Shown: positions 236 through 60,562 of the stretch, one piece after another
Layout: each line of letters begins with the position of its first letter
Numbering within the stretch: the stretch's first letter is position 1
Source of the DNA: Parietichytrium sp. I65-24A
Lineage: Eukaryota; Sar; Bigyra; Thraustochytrida; Thraustochytriidae
Assembly (NCBI GenBank): GCA_012862575.1
Contig: BLSF01000019.1
Coordinates: 496,001 to 560,000, forward strand
Length of the DNA stretch: 64,000 nt
Reading direction: 5' to 3'
The notes under the pieces: generated by a model
Told to the model about the DNA's origin: nothing
The model's input: only the letters and a program-made list of their open reading frames with translations
Databases searched by the model: none
Program-made: the position numbers and the translations under genes

Positions 236-2699
236 GACCGCGTCGCTTGCAGCAAATCGAATCCCGACTTTTACCCCAACTGCAACCTGCAATATGCAAT
301 ATGCAACCTGCAATATGTAATCTGCAACCTGCAGTCTTCAGCCTCGAAAGTTCCGGAAGTGAGGACTGCTCTTGCAAAGCGAAAGAACCACGTTCTCTCA
401 AAGTGTACTCGCAGTCAGTGGTGATTTGGTAACAGGTTTTGGGACTTGCAGACTGTCCTCGACACGTGTGCAAGGACACTCCCTCTGACAAACAACAAAC
501 AAACACATACTTCATACTCCCTTCCTGCTATTCCCGTCAACGAGCAAGGAATTGATCGCGTACAAAGAGCTATTCTCCGCCGATGTTCTGATTTCCTCCT
601 AGTGCACCGGTATGTACCGGTGGTACCGGTAATTTATTCTTTAGTTACACCGAACGAATACGAACGGAGCTGTAAGTATTGTTCTTCAAGTCAGTGCTGA
701 TGGCTGTAATAAACGTGGAAAGCCGCCGAAGCCGTCTTCCGTAGATTACCGTGGACATGTACAAAATTGGTAGGTTGGTGATGTCTATTGGGTTCTCCAT
801 ACTCGTTCATGGAGAAGCTCTCTTTTGTTCGTTGCAGAACCCACTGAATGTTCGTTTATTCATTGGAATGCTTCCCACCTAGTAGTAGCCTATAGGTTCA
901 GTTAGGCTGCGACGTCTATCATTCTATTCCTCGGACTACTATCATTAGAGATAGCCTATGATTTAGTTGATGAAGTGTGCACATTCAAGTTGTTGTTGTG
1001 CACATCCGGGTGTGTGGCGTTAAACATCATTGTTTCAAAGTTCAGGGTATTTCCATCGCTTCTTGAAACTGCGCAGGCGATACAAAATTCAAAAAGTGAT
1101 AAAGAGAGAATCCATTTTAGTGTCTTGCTGTGTGAATCAATCTCAAAATCACACCGGCCAAGTACGGTCAGCCTCATCCATGCAAGCTCCTCAAGTGTGC
1201 ATTTGCCGACGAGCTGGGACGGAGCCCCTCGTCTGATGGCTGAAACGTTCCGTCGTGTAATCTGACAAGAATAGCGGTGTCGAAATTGCCAATGCCATGC
1301 TTTTATCAACACTGTAAACGAAGAAAACTTTCTTTCTTGGACAGTGTGAATGGGTTCAAATGGATTTGGATTGATTACTCAAGGGAAATTTCCTATGTGG
1401 TTAAGGTTAGCTATGTACCGGCGTAAACAGCGAGATTTGTCTGAATCGTATGTGTGCGTCTACTGTAAACGACTAGTAGCGCACGTGCCAGCAGCCTTAA
1501 GGCCAGGATACTGGAAATAGGGAGGCCGAAGGCTCGTGTGTCGCCACATTACACGACTTGTGAAGTTCGATAGGTTTCGCTACCTAACAAAATGGATTCG
1601 CTATGTGCAACACTGGTTCGGTAACATGGGCTCGGGGCCATGGTCTAAGAGCCAGTTGGGCTTGCCCGTCGTCCCTTAATTAGGCCCAATTATGTGATAC
1701 AATAATAATACACTTGCTCCTACACGAGGCGTCTAAGCTTAAGGCCCCTTAAACGGCAATAGGACTAGCGGTCGCTCCGTCGGACATCGAAAATGATAGG
1801 TAATTCTTAGGCCGCACCAACCTGTAGCTACTAGTAGCTATTTAAGTTGATAGGGGTACAGGCATCCGCTACGCGCTAGTCATAGAAACAATCGTGAGAA
1901 CGTCTGAATTCACTCTTCCGAATCCTCTAGGCATTATTAATCCTAACATTAGAACCACAATGTCCATTCAGAGCTCTACTAGTGGACCCAGTAATTCACG
2001 TAGAAGCACCTCTGGACTTACCGCCGTCCCTAGAGCTGTAACTCGACTAAACCACATGTACGACTCCAACTATACATTCACTAGCAGCATCTACACTTAT
2101 CTGGATAGATTGACTGAGATTTTGAGTTTGCGAAGAAATGTGAAGTAGAATGTGTTGACTGACAAAGGTGAATGAAGAAAGCGAGGAAGCTATTTGGCTA
2201 GTTCACAAGTCCATCAACATCAGAATTCAGAGCTTTGGAAAGAGAAAGTGAATGTGTGCAACTGCGATTTGCTATAATTTCCAGCCCTTTCGTTCTTGAC
2301 GTTGTGAATGTTGTAAAGTGTCTGCTTGGCTGATTCCTAGCCATCGCCAGCAAAAGAAAGAGCGAAACTTGCGAAAGAGAGAGAAGATTGCCGAGTGTAA
2401 GCCCAGCTTCCAAAACCAAAAGTTGCAAGAGTGTGCATCGAGTGAAAGTGGACTGATAGAGAGGGAGCCATCGGCTGAAAGAGCAAGCGCGACCGGAAGC
2501 AGCAGACCCCCAAACAGCTCGCGCCAAAAGAAAAAAGTCACAGGAACAACAAGAGTTTGAGCGCACGCAAGTGTGAGTGAATAAAGTGTAGTGGGGCAGC
2601 TCGAACGCGGTCACAGAACGAGGTTGGACAGGTCGGCAGTCACGTTTGGAAGTTTGCTTGTTGGGACAAAGAAAGGAAGCCACGGTAGTGTTCGGGAGA
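236..2699. other. Gene-free stretch of unusual composition
   Basis: About 2.5 kb has no coding-like frame longer than 118 residues. It is more AT-rich and richer in TAG/CTA words than the genic DNA around it, particularly at 600-2000. At 608-633 there are overlapping ACCGGT palindromes. A frame at 1894-2148 (84 residues, Ser/Thr/Asn-rich) lacks recognisable motifs. The last few hundred bases, rich in GAAAG and AAGAG, look like promoter and 5' UTR of the RING gene. Old mobile-element debris is possible, but I see no terminal repeats or enzyme motifs. Confidence 0.5.
281..334. repeat. Degenerate tandem repeat (TGCAACCTGCAATA)
   Basis: Units built from TGCAACC, TGCAATA and TGCAGT words follow each other over about 54 bases just upstream of the left-edge minus-strand gene. 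They lie outside any supported coding frame. Confidence 0.8.
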
Positions 2700-4544
2700 A
2701 TGCAGAGCGGGGAGGGTAACTTTGCCGAAATGGAGGGTCTTAGCGCGCGACTTTCCTCGCAAAGGCCGCCAATCATGGCAAACACTAGCAGGAGGAGGAG
2801 CGCCATGCAGGACGCCCCGTGCGTGGACACCTACGGGTCGTCTGCGGCGTACTTTATGTCCACCGGTCTTGGGCAAGAACAGGGCCACATGCAGCATCCA
2901 TTAGCTGCAAACCCAGAGCAGCGATCTCTTTCTTACGCATCTTACATGACGGTTCTCTCTCCAAAGATGAACCCTTTTGAGTCCATCTGCGCGACGCTAG
3001 ACGGCGGGAGACGCCGAAACTCTTGGTCCGCAACCATCTATGGCGCAGGAAAGACGACTTTCATATCAGTGAGGGATACACTCTTCACCAACTCTGAGGC
3101 CAACGAAGCTTCCGAGGCTCAGGAGGCCCTGCTCGGCCGTCACTCATCCTTCTCTGGAGAGAGCAGCACCAATTCCGATGAATTTTCGAGCACATATGAC
3201 AGCGATAGTAGCAACGAGTTCCTCTCCTCTGACGACGGATCCGCGTGCGAAGAGAGCGCAGTGTGCTTCGACTTTACCGCTGCAAAGACGCTTGCTGCTC
3301 CTGGATACCTTCACGAAGACAAGAGTGAGAGTGTGGTGCATGCCTCGCAAGCAGAATCGGGAATCGTCTGCAAGAAGGCAGATAGCGCCGAGGAGGAAAG
3401 TGATGATGAGTCTAATTGGGATGAAAACTGCCTCATCTGCATGGGGTCCTTTGACGCGAATCGCCCGGAAGAGAAAATTGTCATGCCTTGCCTCCAAAAG
3501 TGTAACCCAGCGCCTGTGCACGCCAAGTGCATCTACGAATGGAGAGAAAGGTGTGATACATCCAAAGAGAAGAGCGCGACTTGCCCACTCTGCCGCGGAC
3601 AGCTGAGCGAGTTTAAGTACACTCCTCCTGACAGACTCCAGATCCACACGTTTACCATGTTCTCAGCCCGCAAGCAGTTTGTCATGCATCCAGTTCCGAA
3701 GGAAGCTGGCACGATTCGCTGCTACTTGCGCGTCACCCCTTCGTCTTGGCTCGGGAGCTCGACTTACGAGATGTACATTCAAGCGCCATGCGCTCTGCCA
3801 TATCCGCTAGGGGTTTTGCCAAGTGCAGAAGGTCCACGTGAAGGAGATCAGCTCCTCATGTGTGCAAGGAAGCGATCAGGGCTGCTTAGTAGCAAATTAG
3901 ACATATCCCTGGATCGCAACGGAGATGATTTTGAGCCAAAGTCGCCAAACTACGTCGGGCACGTACAAAGCAATTTCTCTGGTCTGGAGCACACGGTGGC
4001 TCAATCGTCGCCGGAGCTCGGGACTATCGAGCTTGGCGCGGTTCTGTACAACCAAAACCGTTTTGGACTGGCGGTTGGACCTCGAAAAATGAAGGTTGCG
4101 TTGCCCAACGTGGAAGAGCTGGAGGTCCCAAGCGACTCGCCCCCGAACGCGCCATCGCACCGGACAAAACCGAACCGCCCAAGTCGAAAAAGCGAAATGC
4201 TCTCAAGCGTTGTGAGAGAAGCCCCGCATTCAGACGAGATCCCGCCCATTGGGCCAAGCACCAGAGTACTCCATGGCTACAACAGGGAACCCGTCTACTT
4301 AGATGCGCTTCATCAGTACTCGCTAGACTTTCAGGGTCGCGTCACACTGCCTTCCAACAAGAACTTTCAGCTTCTTGTGGGGTCTGGCGCAGGGGCAGAA
4401 ATGATCATGCAATTTGGAAAGGTAGTTGCCCACGAGACGCACGACATTGCTGTGTACACGCTAGATATCGCCTTTCCCTTGTCCCCGTTGCAGGCATTCG
4501 GCATCGCTCTAAGTTCCTGCGACAAGAAACTTGGATGCGCTTAG
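2700..4544 (+). CDS. RING-variant (RING-CH-like) zinc-finger protein, probable E3 ubiquitin ligase
   Basis: This is a 614-residue protein from the first in-frame ATG. The N-terminal third is Ser/Glu-rich and probably disordered. Around residues 244-300 the cysteines and histidine run CLIC, MPC, KC, VHAKC and CPLC. That C4HC3 order matches the RING-CH/MARCH type rather than classical RING-HC. The family usually binds E2 enzymes and transfers ubiquitin. MARCH proteins are membrane-anchored, but I see no membrane helix here, so this would be a soluble relative. The C-terminal 300 residues are not recognised. Another ATG at residue 11 is an alternative start. Confidence 0.75.
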   Translation: MQSGEGNFAEMEGLSARLSSQRPPIMANTSRRRSAMQDAPCVDTYGSSAAYFMSTGLGQEQGHMQHPLAANPEQRSLSYASYMTVLSPKMNPFESICATLDGGRRRNSWSATIYGAGKTTFISVRDTLFTNSEANEASEAQEALLGRHSSFSGESSTNSDEFSSTYDSDSSNEFLSSDDGSACEESAVCFDFTAAKTLAAPGYLHEDKSESVVHASQAESGIVCKKADSAEEESDDESNWDENCLICMGSFDANRPEEKIVMPCLQKCNPAPVHAKCIYEWRERCDTSKEKSATCPLCRGQLSEFKYTPPDRLQIHTFTMFSARKQFVMHPVPKEAGTIRCYLRVTPSSWLGSSTYEMYIQAPCALPYPLGVLPSAEGPREGDQLLMCARKRSGLLSSKLDISLDRNGDDFEPKSPNYVGHVQSNFSGLEHTVAQSSPELGTIELGAVLYNQNRFGLAVGPRKMKVALPNVEELEVPSDSPPNAPSHRTKPNRPSRKSEMLSSVVREAPHSDEIPPIGPSTRVLHGYNREPVYLDALHQYSLDFQGRVTLPSNKNFQLLVGSGAGAEMIMQFGKVVAHETHDIAVYTLDIAFPLSPLQAFGIALSSCDKKLGCA

Positions 4545-52454: not shown

Positions 52455-53597
52455 ATCTACTGCTTTCTCGCACCCGCGATGGCTCAATCAAGTCTCCGCA
52501 ACCCGCCTCGGTTGCTTGAGCCATCTCTTCTCGTTCTACTTTGCATGTTTGTTTCTTTCCGCCTCTGTGCATTGCGCATGCTTCTTCTTTCCATTTCTTT
52601 TAAACTCGCGACGCCGGCGTCGCTTTTAGCGTAACAAGTCGACGTCCAGTGTCCAGTAAGGCGAAATAACAATATCTTTTGGTCCCGTCCTCACACTCGC
52701 CATTCTTTTGCGACTTCATTCTCCCAACTGTCTGTTCGACTCAGATTCAGAAGCAGCGAGAGAGCCCGCAGGAGATTGCAAGTCTTCGTTTCATCAGTTC
52801 GCACATCCTCAACGTGAACATGGTGTGTCATGTACCAACCATCCCACTCTTCTCACTGATTCAATCTGGCCCAGTGAGGGCTTTTTAATGTGGCCCAATG
52901 AGATCCATCCATGACAATGACAATGACAATGACAATGACAATGACAATGACAATGACAACAATGACAATGACAGTTCCTGTCACCGGTTCTCGCTATTAC
53001 CCATCCCGTCTAACCACCTCTACCCTCAGCCGTTACATTCGCTCTTAGCCTACCGTTCCTTCCCTCACTGTCAGTACCCGGCTCCTCCTCTACCCACACC
53101 ACTACACTCTACTACCGCGATAGATGAAACGCCAAACTCCTACTCCAATCTCATAACCGCAAGACACTTACCTTCTCCATAGCCGCAGCACCTAGCATTC
53201 AATCCCTAGCGATGAAAGATTCTTACCGTTTATACTAGAGAGGAGTAGCCGGAGCCAACTTGACGAGTGAAGAGAGAGGATGACAGAGAGAGAACGAAGG
53301 AAACCGATCCAACAATAAGAAGCTGAAAGAAGCTAGAGGGACGCTCCCCACAGGTAAGCTGTTGTGCGGACACGCAGGAACTTGAGGGTGTGCACCCTTG
53401 TCTGTGTGTTTGATTTGTTAGATTCTGCGTGCGCTGTGGGAACAAGAGTTGTTGTTGCCGTGTTCCGTTTCGAGGCAACGAAAGAAAGAAAGAAAGAAGG
53501 GAGCAAGTACAGAAGTAAAGAAGGCAAGAAGTACAGAAGGCAAGGACGAGATTGCTGCGGGTTCTGGGCGAGGCCAGGTGGAGCAGGGCCGTGGAGT
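52455..53597. other. Intergenic region with hexamer repeat
   Basis: About 1.1 kb holding the ETF-QO 3' UTR and the promoter and leader of the ABCG gene. A TGACAA hexamer array lies at 52912-52972 and AAAGAAAG tracts near 53482-53500. The open frame continues upstream of the ABCG ATG but is poor in coding character. Confidence 0.55.
52912..52972 (+). repeat. Tandem TGACAA hexamer, about ten copies
   Basis: TGACAA is repeated almost without interruption over 60 bases in the spacer between ETF-QO and the ABCG gene. Confidence 0.95.
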
Positions 53598-56480
53598 ATG
53601 CGGAATATAATTGTGCGATGCGCATTGGCGTCGCTGGCGTGCGGCGTTTGCGCAGCGCAGTTAGAGGACTGCCCAGCAGTGTCGAGCCAAGTGTGCAATA
53701 ATACGGTTGCCTCGGCAGAAGAGTGCGATGGTTTAGCGGAAAATCCGCAAGCTGGGTCTGTGCAAGCACAGGGGCTCTTCTTGCAACCATCATGCTTGTC
53801 TGAAGCGATCGCTGGAGCTGGCTCGTCGACATCGTACTTGTTCAGCCAATGCGCATATATGCTGACACAGCAGGCATATGGCGTGAACGGTGGGTCCGAG
53901 CTCGCTTACCCGTCCCCGCAACCGCTAGGGTCGCTGGTTGGGTCGCTGATTATGTTTTTACTGTACTTTATCGTCCCGCTCACGTACTTTCTCATCGTGA
54001 TTGTGATGAGGAAAAGGCTTTACGCCAAGTTTGGAGGCAACCCCGACCAGGAGATCGCAAGTACGCAACACCAAGACTCACGCAATCTGCAGTCTGGATT
54101 CTCTTCGGGCGGGGATGAACCGGATCAAACACCGGCATATCTAAGCTTTCATCGCCTGACGTACTCTGTCAAGCTCAATAAAGGAGGAATCAGCAAACTG
54201 AAGAAAGAAAATGGCGGCAAGACTCCAACCACGCCCGGTTGGGATCAGAAGAAAATTCTGCAAAATATCACCGGAGTGTTTCGGCCCGGCACTCTCAGCG
54301 CCATAATGGGGCCATCCGGGTGTGGAAAGTCCACCTTGCTGGACGTTCTCGCAGATCGCAAGCAGGGCGGAAACACTCGCGGAAAGGTTCTCATCAACGG
54401 AACTCCGAGGACAAAGCTTTTCAAAAGGCTCTCCGGCTACGTCATGCAGTTTGATGCCCTTTTCCCGCACCTTACTGTCCGCGAGGTTCTTATGTACACC
54501 GCAGAACTTCGGATCACTGGCCTGGACTGGCGGGCAAAGCGCAAGGCGGTACAGAACGTGATTAAAGATTTGGATCTGAAACGCTGCGCAGATTCGCGTA
54601 TAGGCGGGAACGGCGTGCCAGGAATCAGTGGTGGGCAAGCGAGACGCGTGACCGTTGGCATCGAGCTCATTACTAGGCCTCTGATTCTGTTTCTCGACGA
54701 GCCCACGACGGGGCTTGACGCGTTCTCCTCCTTGCAGCTTGTCCGCACCCTCCGAGTTCTTGCAGATTCCGGGCGAACGGTCATCGCGACAATCCATCAA
54801 CCTCGGCCACAGATCTTTGATTTGTTCAACACTCTACTTCTGATGAAAGATGGAAGAATTGCATACTTTGGCCCCGTTCGCGATATTGAAGCGTATTTCA
54901 ACTCGATCGGAATCAACGTTAGCGGAGGGTCCGTGGCCGATGCGGTCGTGGATCTTACCTATTCCAAGGAAACGAATGACCAAAGTGCAGACGCTGGCGA
55001 AAACGCCGTTGCAGCTCTTGCCGATGCCTATGACTCAAGTCTTCAAGCCAAGAGAATTCAGCTTCTGGCAGACAAAATCGAGGACAGGGTGTACTCCAAG
55101 CTTCCACCTCCGATTGCCTCAATCTTTGGTGCCGTGGATCCAAAGTCAGGGGAATTGTTGGACAAGCGCGCCATGCGCTTCTCTCAAAGCATCCAAATGC
55201 AGATATTTATTCTGATAAGGAGGTCGTACAAAAACATCGGCCGAGACTCGACATACTTCACCAATGTGGGCCTGCAAATGAGCCAGTTCCTGTTTTACGG
55301 CTTGCTCTTCCTCGGGTTGCGTACCCAGACTGTCGAGATTAGTGACGATGCTGGAAGCGTTCTCGGCGTGGCTGATGTCAACTATCTCTTTATCCTGCAG
55401 GAGCGTGCATTTCTTTTCCAGGTGATGAATACCATCATGCTCATTGAAGTAGTGGTGATTGCAACAGCATTTGTGGAGAAGAGCATTTTTCGGCGCGAGC
55501 ATGCTTCCGGGGCTTACTCTGTCATAGCATATCACACACAGTTCATCATTAGATTCTACGTGGATGCCATCTGGAAGGGTCTCATAGCTGCAGTATTGTG
55601 CTACTTCTTTCCACCAATGCGCCTCGACCCCGATGCATTTTTCTACTTTGCAGCCATGCTCATGTTGTGCAGTACTATGGGTTCCGCAATGGCTTTTCTC
55701 ATGGTGAGTCTCATTCCCGATGCGGAAGGCGCCGCAAATATCCACGCACAGGTCTTGGGCACCTTTGGTCTCTACTCTGGGTTTTTCTTGTTTCCCAACG
55801 TTCTCCCTGTATGGATGAAGTGGTTGTACTATATGCTCCCTTTCAAGTACAGTTTTGAGGGCCTGGAGCTCAACGAATTCACGTGTATGACAGTCGGGGA
55901 GGCAAATTACCTATTTGCGATCGATACCACCCTCAATCGCTGGACTAACCTTCTGGTGTTCCTCGTATACCCTCCGATCTTCCACGCTATCGCAATGCTC
56001 GGGTCTTTTGCATACACTCGGCCAAAGTCGTTCTGGGTACGGCATTTTAGCTGCTGCACGGGCTCGGATGACTCTAGTCCTTTGGCGGCATCAAAGCTTC
56101 ACAGTACCATCCCCTTGGACTCGCATGACTCGGGAGAGGGACACGAGGGTGCTTCTCCGGAACCAGCCTTGGAACCAACTAGCACCAAGGCAGCTTCTCG
56201 CAAGGTTTCAAGCGAAAATGGCATCGAGCTTTCGTCCATCGCTGTCCATACTACCGAAGATTCACAATCCAACCCTCCTGCTGTGAACAACGGCGAGGCC
56301 GTAGCCAACTTCGAGGGCGACGATAACGACTCGGAGAGTGATGCGACCTTGACCGACAGCTTAGAACCTTCGATTCTCACAACTACAAGCCTGCAGCACG
56401 ACCCGGCACCGCCTACGCCCGTTTCTAATGCGGATGGGATCTCTATTCGTGATCCGAACTCGCCGGTGCACAAAACGTGA
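53598..56480 (+). CDS. ABCG-subfamily half transporter with signal peptide and Cys-containing ectodomain
   Basis: This is 960 residues from the ATG before a signal peptide (RNIIVRCALASLACGVCA). A Cys-containing extracellular segment and one membrane helix (residues 112-135) come first. The ATPase domain then has Walker A GPSGCGKST (238-246), signature ISGGQARR, Walker B LILFLDEPTTGLDAF and the H-loop ATIHQPR. About six helices of the ABC2 membrane domain follow, and a Ser/acidic tail. Nucleotide-first order and the extra N-terminal helix match the plant ABCG24/28-like group. Half transporters work as dimers. Exported substrates in this group include lipids and surface-coat precursors; the one here is unknown. 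Confidence 0.92.
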   Translation: MRNIIVRCALASLACGVCAAQLEDCPAVSSQVCNNTVASAEECDGLAENPQAGSVQAQGLFLQPSCLSEAIAGAGSSTSYLFSQCAYMLTQQAYGVNGGSELAYPSPQPLGSLVGSLIMFLLYFIVPLTYFLIVIVMRKRLYAKFGGNPDQEIASTQHQDSRNLQSGFSSGGDEPDQTPAYLSFHRLTYSVKLNKGGISKLKKENGGKTPTTPGWDQKKILQNITGVFRPGTLSAIMGPSGCGKSTLLDVLADRKQGGNTRGKVLINGTPRTKLFKRLSGYVMQFDALFPHLTVREVLMYTAELRITGLDWRAKRKAVQNVIKDLDLKRCADSRIGGNGVPGISGGQARRVTVGIELITRPLILFLDEPTTGLDAFSSLQLVRTLRVLADSGRTVIATIHQPRPQIFDLFNTLLLMKDGRIAYFGPVRDIEAYFNSIGINVSGGSVADAVVDLTYSKETNDQSADAGENAVAALADAYDSSLQAKRIQLLADKIEDRVYSKLPPPIASIFGAVDPKSGELLDKRAMRFSQSIQMQIFILIRRSYKNIGRDSTYFTNVGLQMSQFLFYGLLFLGLRTQTVEISDDAGSVLGVADVNYLFILQERAFLFQVMNTIMLIEVVVIATAFVEKSIFRREHASGAYSVIAYHTQFIIRFYVDAIWKGLIAAVLCYFFPPMRLDPDAFFYFAAMLMLCSTMGSAMAFLMVSLIPDAEGAANIHAQVLGTFGLYSGFFLFPNVLPVWMKWLYYMLPFKYSFEGLELNEFTCMTVGEANYLFAIDTTLNRWTNLLVFLVYPPIFHAIAMLGSFAYTRPKSFWVRHFSCCTGSDDSSPLAASKLHSTIPLDSHDSGEGHEGASPEPALEPTSTKAASRKVSSENGIELSSIAVHTTEDSQSNPPAVNNGEAVANFEGDDNDSESDATLTDSLEPSILTTTSLQHDPAPPTPVSNADGISIRDPNSPVHKT

Positions 56481-57225: not shown

Positions 57226-59171
57226 ATGCTGCGCGCGAGGAAGAGCTCGCTTTGCCTGGTGCGACAGCTGTGCACCGGAAGCAGGAAGGACTGGCAGTAC
57301 TTTTCGTTCTACAAGTACGCCGGATTGGAGCAGCCGTGGGCGTTGAGGAGCGCATTGGAGCGAGAATGGCAAGCGATGGGAGTGCTAGGGAGAGTGTATG
57401 TGGCAAGTGAGGGCGTTAATGGGCAGGTGGCGGTTCCATCGGGGAAAGAGGAGGAGTTCAAAAGGAGCATTTTGAACAAAGGAGGCTTGGACAATTGCTT
57501 CATCAATGTGGGCGAATCCATCTCGCAAGATGAGCAGTTCCCGTTTCGCAAGCTCAGAGTCAAGCTGAGGTCGAGGATCGTTAACGACGGCCTGGACGAG
57601 CCGCTAAAGCTCGTAGATCGCGGAGAAGAGACGAGCCCCGAGGAGTGGCACGAACTGGTGAGGAACAAGTCGGAGGACACGGTGATCTTGGACTGCCGCA
57701 ATTCTTACGAGCATGAGATCGGGCGCTTTGATGGGTCGGAGCGCGTCATGGTTGACGTGTTTCGAAACACATTCGAGAAGTTGGACGAGAGGTTTGCAGG
57801 AGATCTCTCTGCAGAGAACACCAACGTCATGATTTATTGCACGGGAGGAATTCGCTGCGAGAAGGTTGGCGCGTACTTGAAGGAGAAACTAAACGTCAAA
57901 ACCGTGAAGAGACTGGAGGGAGGAATCGTCAAGTACTTAGAGTACATCAAAGCAAACGAAGGCTTGACGTCCACGTTCAAGGGGAAGAATTTTGTGTTCG
58001 ATGATCGATCCTTCTTGAACGGCGCCGTCAAGGCGACAGATGACGTGCTCGGAAAGTGCATATATTGCGGGACACCCCATGACGATCACTCCAAGTGCAA
58101 AAATATCATGTGCGGAAGAACACAGCTTCAATGCCCTGCATGCGCCGCAAGGATGAACCACACCTGCAGCCCTGCCTGTAAAGAAGCCGTGGAGCTTTTC
58201 CAGGGGATGAATACAGAAGAGCAGCGGGCTTACAGAAAAGCAAACGTTAGCCGTTTCAAGCCCGAGCTGCAGACGCTACAAAATCGATACGGCATCTTGG
58301 CCGGCCCAATGCCTCCCGGCCCAAATTCACGAGCGAGGGGGTTACACACGTTTCCGCCGCATCACAACGGGGAGCCGTCTTTTTCAGAGCTGGAGGCGTA
58401 CTGTGAGACGGTGTCAAGCGTATTGACGTCGGAAAGTCGAGAATCTGCACTTGCAGAAATCCGACGAGCAACAGAGGCTCGACTTGCCCGTCCCCATATG
58501 CTCGCATCAGTGCAGCAGGGGCGATTATTGCGTAAGTAAGAGGGCTTGAGGTGGCGACGTCCCTTTCTTGTGTGCAAAAAGAGCTCAGGAGTTTCATGTA
58601 CGCAGGCATTATGCAGGCACATTTTGATTATCTTGATGGTGAATGCCCACTGAATTGAGATATCTGTTTTCACTCCTGGTCAGGTTTTCTTGTACAGATT
58701 GTGCGCGCTAAAAAGTGTTTGGAGCTCGGGACATTTAGCGGTTATTCTTCTCTGTGTATCCTTGACGGCCTTCCGCAAGACGGCGAGCTCATCACATGTG
58801 ACATCGACGAATCTGCGCTCGAAATCGCTCGCCCGATTCTCTCTGCGGATCCCCGCGTGAGCGTACGCTCCGAACGTGGAATGGATGTCATCCGCAGCTT
58901 GGGAGAGCCAATGGATCTGATCTACGTGGATGCAAATAAAGTTGGTTATTGGGAGTATTACGAGGAAATAATTAACAATGGCTTGCTCAATCGGAATGGC
59001 GTCATGGTGTTTGACAATACACTTTTCAAAGGCGCTGTAATCTCTCCAAAAAAGCCCCAAAGAATAGCCCGAGCGATGGACAGGTTTAACCAAAAAGTGG
59101 CGGAAGACTCCAGAACTCGCCAGTTGTGCCTTCCGCTTTGGGATGGTGTGACGTGCGTCACTTTGGTCTAG
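57226..59171 (+). CDS. TrhO-type rhodanese tRNA hydroxylase fused to a TrmR-like O-methyltransferase, 2 exons
   Basis: Exon 1 is 57226-58531, the phase-1 intron 58532-58683 (152 nt, GTAAGT to TCAG) and exon 2 58684-59171, giving 597 residues. Residues 1-340 are TrhO/UPF0176: VYVASEGVNGQVAVP, a rhodanese domain with Cys-205 in IYCTGGIRCEKVG, and a Cys-rich end from C278. TrhO hydroxylates wobble uridine in bacterial tRNAs (ho5U34). Residues 375-597 are a class I SAM O-methyltransferase: AKKCLELGTFSGYSS, YVDANKVGYWEYYEE, VFDNTLFKG. The intron falls inside this domain; splicing joins MLASVQQGRLLR to FLVQIVRAKK, the expected N-terminal helices. Bacterial TrmR of this family methylates ho5U to mo5U. 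The N-terminus looks like a mitochondrial or plastid presequence. Confidence 0.9.
58532..58683 (+). other. Intron within the TrhO-methyltransferase fusion gene
   Basis: The donor GTAAGTAAG follows TTATTGC, and the acceptor TCCTGGTCAG ends a pyrimidine-rich tract. Phase 1 is the only phase that joins both open frames. Unspliced, the first frame stops within three codons of the donor. Confidence 0.85.
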
Positions 59172-59199: not shown

Positions 59200-60336
59200 C
59201 TAGTCTACTTCTGAATGGATAATTTCGGGGGCCGCCGATAGGTTCCGGCCGTCCGGTGACCCAGGGTGGATACGCAGTTCTTGACTGTCCAGTGCGCTGC
59301 GGGCTGTAGGCTCAGCCAAAGAAAGCTCGGCCGGAGCGATCTTCAGCTTGTCCGAGGAGAATCTCAGCGCCCGCGACGATCCTTTGTCTTTCGCACGCAT
59401 AGAAAGGGCCAAAGCTGTGAGTACGAATCGCTCAAACTGAAATAGGAAAAAGGCGAGGGTGACTCCGCTGTCAAAGTCGTTGAAAATGGTCTCGCTAGCG
59501 AGGGCTGCAATTTGGAGCACCATGACAAAGAGAAGAACGAACATTGAGGTCACGAAGAACACCCGAGCTTTAAGTAATACGCGCTCAGCGAGTACCTTCA
59601 CGTGCGACTCGTCTGTCGAATTTCGCATGAGCTCTTTGTACCAGCGAATGGATGGCAGCATCACCACACTGGCTTCCCAAAAATATATAAAGCTGACGCC
59701 GGCGACTCCGAGCATGCAGATGCGTATGGTCTCGTGTACACTGTCCTCAGAAACTGAAAATACCACCGTGAAAGAATTAAACGCCAACAATTTAATCCCA
59801 GCAAGGAACCTGAAGGTTTCGCTGCTTAATAACACCTTCTTTCCACTGGTTCTCCGGAACCTGATGTCATGCTCCCATAACTCCACAAATCGGAGCATGT
59901 ACAGTGATAAGGTGATCATTTCCCCAGCACAATAATTTGCCATCAGTGTCGATACGAGCAAATTCTTTCCGAACCTCCACTTCAAAGGGTCGGTGACTTT
60001 GAGTGAGCAGCTGATCACCAAAAGACCCTGAGACGCAATGTAGGTGTAGCGATTTTTGTTTTTGGTATTGGCCCAATCACCAAGCAGATTCCCATCTCGC
60101 CAGGACATCACCAGCAGCAGCATTGGTGGGACAATGTTTATGAGACTCGTTGCGAGCAGCACTCTGTTAACAGCGCGAAAATAATCTTCCCCATAGTCGC
60201 ATTCTCCAGTGCAGTTGAAGCAGAAGAATGTGGTCTCCCATCCGTCCTGGCACTCGCAAGATATTGAGTCCGCCGTGAAGTTATCTACGCATTGCTGATT
60301 CACACTGCAGGCCAATGCCACTGCGCAGGATGGCAT
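59200..60336 (-). CDS. EGF-like multi-pass membrane protein
   Basis: This is 378 residues from the first ATG. Residues 4-45 have the Cys spacing of an EGF-like module (CAVALACSVNQQC, then SCECQDGW). About seven hydrophobic helices follow, starting near residue 58 (NRVLLATSLINIVPPMLLLV), and a Ser/Ala-rich cytosolic tail. The layout resembles EGF-type 7TM receptors, but no receptor family is recognised. No signal peptide precedes the EGF module, so an upstream exon may be missing; the frame is open upstream for 24 codons without an ATG. Its stop lies only 28 bases from that of the fusion gene. Confidence 0.65.
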   Translation of the reverse strand: MPSCAVALACSVNQQCVDNFTADSISCECQDGWETTFFCFNCTGECDYGEDYFRAVNRVLLATSLINIVPPMLLLVMSWRDGNLLGDWANTKNKNRYTYIASQGLLVISCSLKVTDPLKWRFGKNLLVSTLMANYCAGEMITLSLYMLRFVELWEHDIRFRRTSGKKVLLSSETFRFLAGIKLLAFNSFTVVFSVSEDSVHETIRICMLGVAGVSFIYFWEASVVMLPSIRWYKELMRNSTDESHVKVLAERVLLKARVFFVTSMFVLLFVMVLQIAALASETIFNDFDSGVTLAFFLFQFERFVLTALALSMRAKDKGSSRALRFSSDKLKIAPAELSLAEPTARSALDSQELRIHPGSPDGRNLSAAPEIIHSEVD

Positions 60337-60562
60337 GGCGCCGCAGCTTGTCGCCCTTCGAACGGCCCTTGCCTTGCTGCTCGCTTTGGCCTGCGCGCGT
60401 TTCGCCAACCAGTCAGCTTGTCTGGAGCGAAACGAGAACTACAAGTTCCCTGAACTGTTGAGGGAGGCTGCCTTGGTCAAGTATGGACTGCGAAACCGCT
60501 ATCTCTCCTTCTGCGAGCCAGCAAACGAGTCGTCAGGGACAGACAACGACACCAACTCCTAG
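60335..60562 (+). CDS. Possible small secreted protein overlapping the start of the divergent membrane-protein gene
   Basis: This is 75 residues starting with a signal-peptide-like stretch (LVALRTALALLLALACARF) and a short mature part containing two cysteines and three N-glycosylation-type NQS/NES/NDT sites. Codons (AAC, TAC, AAG, GAG, TTC) look like those of real genes. Its ATG shares the CATG palindrome with the minus-strand ATG at 60336. Either one of the two starts is wrong, or the genes truly overlap head to head. It has no recognised family. Confidence 0.35.
   Translation: MAPQLVALRTALALLLALACARFANQSACLERNENYKFPELLREAALVKYGLRNRYLSFCEPANESSGTDNDTNS

Follow-up and report, generated by a model that had tools for sequence, protein, structure and literature searches.

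The window, the whole stretch of 64,000 nucleotides from the thraustochytrid Parietichytrium sp. I65-24A that we analyzed (G000:C19:496001-560000), contains at 57226-59171 two open frames which, joined by one intron, encode a protein of 597 aa. Our reading of the sequence gives good support to a single nuclear one-intron gene in which TrhO is fused to an O-methyltransferase of the Methyltransf_3 family. By phylogeny, the methyltransferase half does not descend from TrmR and belongs to a COMTD1/CCoAOMT-type superclade. The features of the gene are located as follows, in window positions.

57226..58531, + strand: exon 1, with a presequence-like N-terminus, a complete TrhO, a linker and the first O-methyltransferase helices
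57226..57291, + strand: presequence-like N-terminus MLRARKSSLCLVRQLCTGSRKD, judged on composition and hydrophobic moment only
57292..57579, + strand: UPF0176_N acylphosphatase-like domain (Pfam PF17773, 1.8e-19)
57655..57939, + strand: Rhodanese domain (Pfam PF00581, 6.7e-10)
57838-57855, + strand: active-site loop CTGGIR (aa 205-210), within the Rhodanese domain
57979..58182, + strand: Rhodanese_C domain with a Cys-rich motif (CIYCG...; Pfam PF12368, 1.2e-17)
58429..59159, + strand: Methyltransf_3 domain (aa 402-594), interrupted by the intron (Pfam PF01596, 1.2e-40)
58532..58683, + strand: intron predicted from sequence, phase 1, 152 nt, GTAAGT...TCAG, stop codons interrupting a read-through
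58684..59171, + strand: exon 2, with the remainder of the Methyltransf_3 domain plus the stop codon
58719..58748, + strand: SAM-binding motif I, LELGTFSGYS (aa 448-457), from the alignment
58923..58940, + strand: YVDANK, with Asp518 and Lys521, from the alignment
59013..59018, + strand: Asp546-Asn547 pair, from the alignment
59019..59084, + strand: basic insertion loop TLFKGAVISPKKPQRIARAMDR after the DN motif, net charge +5

The TrhO frame begins with an ATG at 57226 and, if the intron is read through, meets a stop codon at 58537-58539. In this region, 31 GT-AG pairs leave the frame open. Scored with an HMM built from bacterial homologues, the join 58531/58684 came out on top with 175.6 bits, followed by a runner-up at 161.1 bits, while exon 2 alone obtained 149.3 bits. 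The Pfam Methyltransf_3 domain crosses this junction (aa 435/436), scoring 139.5 bits in the spliced product vs 121.2 bits for exon 2 alone, and homologues align gap-free through the joined sequence (GRLLR/FLVQIVRAKK). The two ORFs do lie in different frames, that of the methyltransferase being open from 58659, as would be expected of two separate genes with a misread intron and a methyltransferase that is a broken gene fragment. However, the methyltransferase frame has no ATG upstream of motif I and is therefore not workable as a stand-alone gene, the junction restores the domain and outscores the 30 other open joins, and relatives with the same architecture are described in passages of PMC6599085, so that we find two genes hardly credible. 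The best-scoring join, the domain spanning the junction, the gap-free alignment and the missing start codon are what makes the fusion well supported, and they bear out the original prediction of an intron and a single polypeptide at these coordinates, as well as its view that the methyltransferase frame alone is incomplete.

Upstream of the gene (53358-56480, + strand) lies an ABCG-type half transporter (PF00005 + PF01061). A convergent frame of 412 aa (59200-60438, - strand), whose last codon is ~30 bases from the stop codon of the fusion, had no Pfam match and seems rich in hydrophobic segments.

We then analyzed the TrhO half. The domains UPF0176_N, Rhodanese and Rhodanese_C are present in this order, all over the curated cut-offs, and the NCBIfam TrhO equivalog NF001133 gave 196.7 bits vs a cut-off of 170, in agreement with the predicted identity of the N-terminal half. 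According to the passages of PMC6599085 on these residues, C200, T201, G203 and R205 are essential in E. coli TrhO, and K112 and R114 are required. The fusion keeps the C, T, second G and R of CTGGIR together with a basic K-x-R (KLR, aa 113-115), which the alignment with 4f67 puts at the apparently equivalent position, on the UPF0176_N strand implicated in tRNA binding. The domain order, CTGGIR and K-x-R are common to the fusion and to bacterial TrhO (E. coli YceA; Legionella 4f67; 9j5o), but the bacterial proteins are stand-alone, with neither a methyltransferase nor a presequence. The first 24 residues of the fusion comprise 6 K/R and 1 acidic residue, and this basic stretch is absent from the two other TrhO copies of the genome, consistent with the organelle-type N-terminus that had been proposed. 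In the TrhO tree, bacterial long-type TrhO formed a group with the fusion copy (100/98), from which the other two copies stood apart, all three copies being long branches between which joins should be read with caution.

The methyltransferase half had been labeled TrmR, and in the strict sense this name does not hold. Among solved structures, SynOMT (3cbg), 3tr6, 3r3h and human COMTD1 (2avd) matched this half best, with 91-107 bits, whereas the TrmR structures 5zw3 and 8k1f obtained 46-56 bits. Two trees built on different taxon sets, the first of which included rat COMT, placed the domain in the COMTD1/SynOMT/CCoAOMT superclade (98/92), close to enzymes from Myxococcota, Chloroflexota and archaea (98/98) and outside the validated TrmR clade, which stands separately (98/96). 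Forcing it into TrmR was 25 log units worse with the first set, which the AU test did not reject (p=0.135), and 44 log units worse with the second, which it rejected (p=1.8e-5). Group HMMs gave 176 bits for the near bacterial group, 146 for COMTD1/CCoA, 95 for BcOMT2 and 73 for TrmR. Since the branch of the fusion methyltransferase is long (2.0 changes per site), its exact sister group is unsure. As a matter of phylogeny, the domain clusters with small-molecule methyltransferases and away from TrmR, an outcome that the original prediction had itself named as speaking against it. This position cautions that TrmR should not be assumed for this methyltransferase family. The other members of the superclade, COMTD1, cyanobacterial SynOMT (3cbg) and plant CCoAOMT, differ from the methyltransferase studied here in being unfused, and their substrates are small molecules or unknown.

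The D-D-N metal triad (Asp518, Asp546 and Asn547) and Lys521 are conserved in the alignment; we take Asp518 to be a metal ligand and Lys521 to be a catalytic-type residue, roles carried over from the COMT family. Despite the separate clade, the Methyltransf_3 fold, the D-D-N site, the Lys and a basic loop after DN-LF(K/R)G are common to the fusion and to TrmR (B. subtilis YrrM, 5zw3; Fusobacterium-type 8k1f). At +5, the loop after DN has the highest net charge among the compared sequences, TrmR proteins being also high with +1 to +3, a measure that we picked post hoc, after viewing the alignment. In the near-bacterial relatives, this loop is mostly neutral or acidic, and they have LWSG where the fusion has LFKG. 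The best reading of these sequences is that the methyltransferase was recruited independently of TrmR and would have converged on a TrmR-like basic loop. The same alignment showed that human COMTD1 (2avd) has LR at the position of the DN metal-ligand pair, which the rest of the family conserves. A Fusobacterium vincentii protein (L108) is nearly identical to PDB entry 8k1f, a tRNA 5-hydroxyuridine methyltransferase, which therefore appears to be the Fusobacterium TrmR.

We then looked into the pairing of trhO with such methyltransferases in bacteria. Out of 234 cyanobacterial genomes, 79 hold trhO plus a strong Methyltransf_3 gene, a co-occurrence with a Fisher value of 4e-22, uncorrected for kinship. 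The two genes were located within 3.5 kb of each other in 12 of these 79 genomes, vs 0.17 expected by chance, again without correction for genome kinship. All 12 pairs (L033, L041, L042 and L128-L136) are arranged tail to tail; 10 of them are close neighbors (with a gap of ~570 bases in L131), and a further gene lies in between in the other two (L133 and L134). The pairs are diverse, with TrhO identities mostly of 55-79%, and the methyltransferase was in every case of the COMTD1/CCoA type (329-362 bits vs 94-108 for TrmR). These partners form a sister clade, separate from the fusion enzyme's own clade. The tail-to-tail linkage suggests that trhO and the COMTD1/CCoAOMT-type methyltransferase are a functional pair in cyanobacteria, and it makes the O-methyltransferases adjoining trhO testable candidate tRNA enzymes.

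The original prediction had taken the fusion to be undescribed, but passages of Sakai et al. 2019 (PMC6599085) already report a fusion of yceA, named trhO there, and trmR for Phytophthora sojae, P. ramorum and Phaeodactylum tricornutum, the fusion having served as a comparative-genomics clue leading to TrhO. These genes likewise combine TrhO and a methyltransferase in one stramenopile gene; the same passages term the organisms bacterial species and offer, for the methyltransferase, neither a protein analysis nor a placement in a clade. Likened through this published description, our gene differs from them in its stramenopile branch and in a methyltransferase placed outside the TrmR clade. The thraustochytrid gene extends the described TrhO-methyltransferase fusions to a further stramenopile branch, distinct from those of oomycetes and diatoms. 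No relative of the fusion was found in viral contigs, and no bacterial TrhO fused to such a methyltransferase emerged, the longest TrhO frame having 466 aa in 249 Pseudomonadota and 453 aa in 234 cyanobacteria. Longer TrhO frames, of 559-689 aa, occur in a few Myxococcota; an HMM scan, which covered the long-TrhO loci L123 and L125 and left a 590-aa frame (G443) outside, found no methyltransferase at these two loci. In one Chloroflexota genome, a frame of 760 aa that includes a TrmR-like domain (L089) is a probable artifact, as its upstream part is low-complexity sequence.

We also examined the mitochondrial contig, which was recognized by COX1 and has 39.3 kb and 28% GC (C141, loci L023-L026). 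An ARAGORN scan found tRNA-Leu(CAA) and tRNA-Leu(UAG) on it and no tRNA-Leu(UAA), and its long frames contain 15 TTA vs 376 TTG codons. In the thraustochytrid mitochondrial code (NCBI table 23), TTA is a stop codon, which fits the scarce TTA and the absent tRNA. The contig encodes five tRNAs, Val UAC, Ala UGC, Ser UGA, Pro UGG and Leu UAG, each of which is the single U34 tRNA of a four-codon box. No light-harvesting genes (PF00504) were found in the genome, and a photosynthetic plastid is therefore unlikely.

We propose, as the more probable account, that the fusion is a mitochondrial enzyme for the two steps from ho5U34 to mo5U34, with a methyltransferase from the COMTD1/CCoAOMT-type superclade; its activity, reaction order and localization are what we infer. 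Judging from the composition of its N-terminus, the nuclear-encoded protein would be imported into mitochondria, where the TrhO half would bind the anticodon arm, the K-x-R strand holding the tRNA, and hydroxylate U34 in an O2-dependent reaction through the rhodanese loop (CTGGIR). The C-terminal half, with its putative metal site (Asp518, Asp546, Asn547) and Lys521, would then transfer a methyl group from SAM onto the new 5-OH. The likely substrates would be the five mtDNA-encoded U34 tRNAs, each the sole reader of a four-codon box. Of the original two-step proposal, the methylation of ho5U34 after the TrhO step is kept as the best explanation, because sister-clade methyltransferases adjoin trhO in many cyanobacteria and the loop charge resembles that of TrmR, while the identification of the second enzyme with TrmR is given up on account of its clade. 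On these sequence comparisons, it is plausible that a non-TrmR methyltransferase is the partner of TrhO.

The nearest characterized relatives act on catechols, flavonoids or caffeoyl-CoA, which counts against a tRNA role, and ho5U34 is the kind of hydroxyl that COMT-fold enzymes methylate, which counts for it. Rv0187, which belongs to another subfamily, methylates ho5U in vitro as a nucleoside and does not act on ho5U-tRNA, and TrmR does not act on the free nucleoside (PMC6543040). The chemistry of ho5U methylation is therefore open to the fold, and the fold alone cannot imply activity on tRNA; within the fusion, tRNA binding could be provided to the methyltransferase by the TrhO half. Were the methyltransferase a small-molecule enzyme of the catechol, quinol or flavonoid type without a tRNA role, its fusion to TrhO being accidental or serving stability, the tree position with COMTD1/SynOMT/CCoAOMT would be as observed. 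So would the scarcity of TrhO around its nearest bacterial homologues: of the 16 bacterial genomes that encode the closest methyltransferases, 14 had no match to the Rhodanese_C model of TrhO, a search that TrhO types whose Rhodanese_C is weak could escape. We nevertheless consider a small-molecule enzyme unlikely, as the fusion is retained in oomycetes and a diatom (by the description in PMC6599085), trhO is linked to the sister-clade methyltransferase in cyanobacteria, the basic loop is TrmR-like and the fusion gene is the sole Methyltransf_3 found in the genome.

We give still less credence to a methyltransferase that modifies tRNA or rRNA to a product other than mo5U34, for example by acting on a further ho5U derivative or at another position. 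The divergent clade with its long branch would suit such an enzyme, and bacterial xo5U pathways branch to cmo5U/mcmo5U, as passages of PMC6599085 relate, but aromatic hydroxyls are what the COMT fold methylates, and the fused partner directly yields ho5U. Returning to the two-step formation of mo5U34, a broader and more tentative possibility, to which we lean somewhat less than halfway, is that the COMTD1/CCoAOMT superclade contains a second ho5U34 methyltransferase lineage, independent of TrmR, working beside trhO in cyanobacteria and fused to TrhO in stramenopile mitochondria. If true, eukaryotes would use mo5U34 as a wobble modification in mitochondria; no mo5U in any stramenopile organelle is reported in the literature that we searched. 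A TrhO-methyltransferase fusion that occurs in several stramenopiles, and has a mitochondrial-type N-terminus in the gene studied here, offers a direct handle on whether xo5U wobble bases are used in eukaryotic organelles.

TrhO homologues are widespread in eukaryotes and include human TSTD2, of unknown function (PMC10135228). In the 42.5-Mb, 172-contig genome studied here, we found three TrhO genes: the fusion, a stand-alone copy (C37) and an RluA-type fusion (C15). This third copy, at L003 (G000:C15:29005-32193; frame 403-3189, + strand), combines TrhO with an RluA-type pseudouridine synthase (PF00849, 6.8e-14) in a frame of at least 929 aa and is thus another TrhO joined to an RNA-modifying enzyme.
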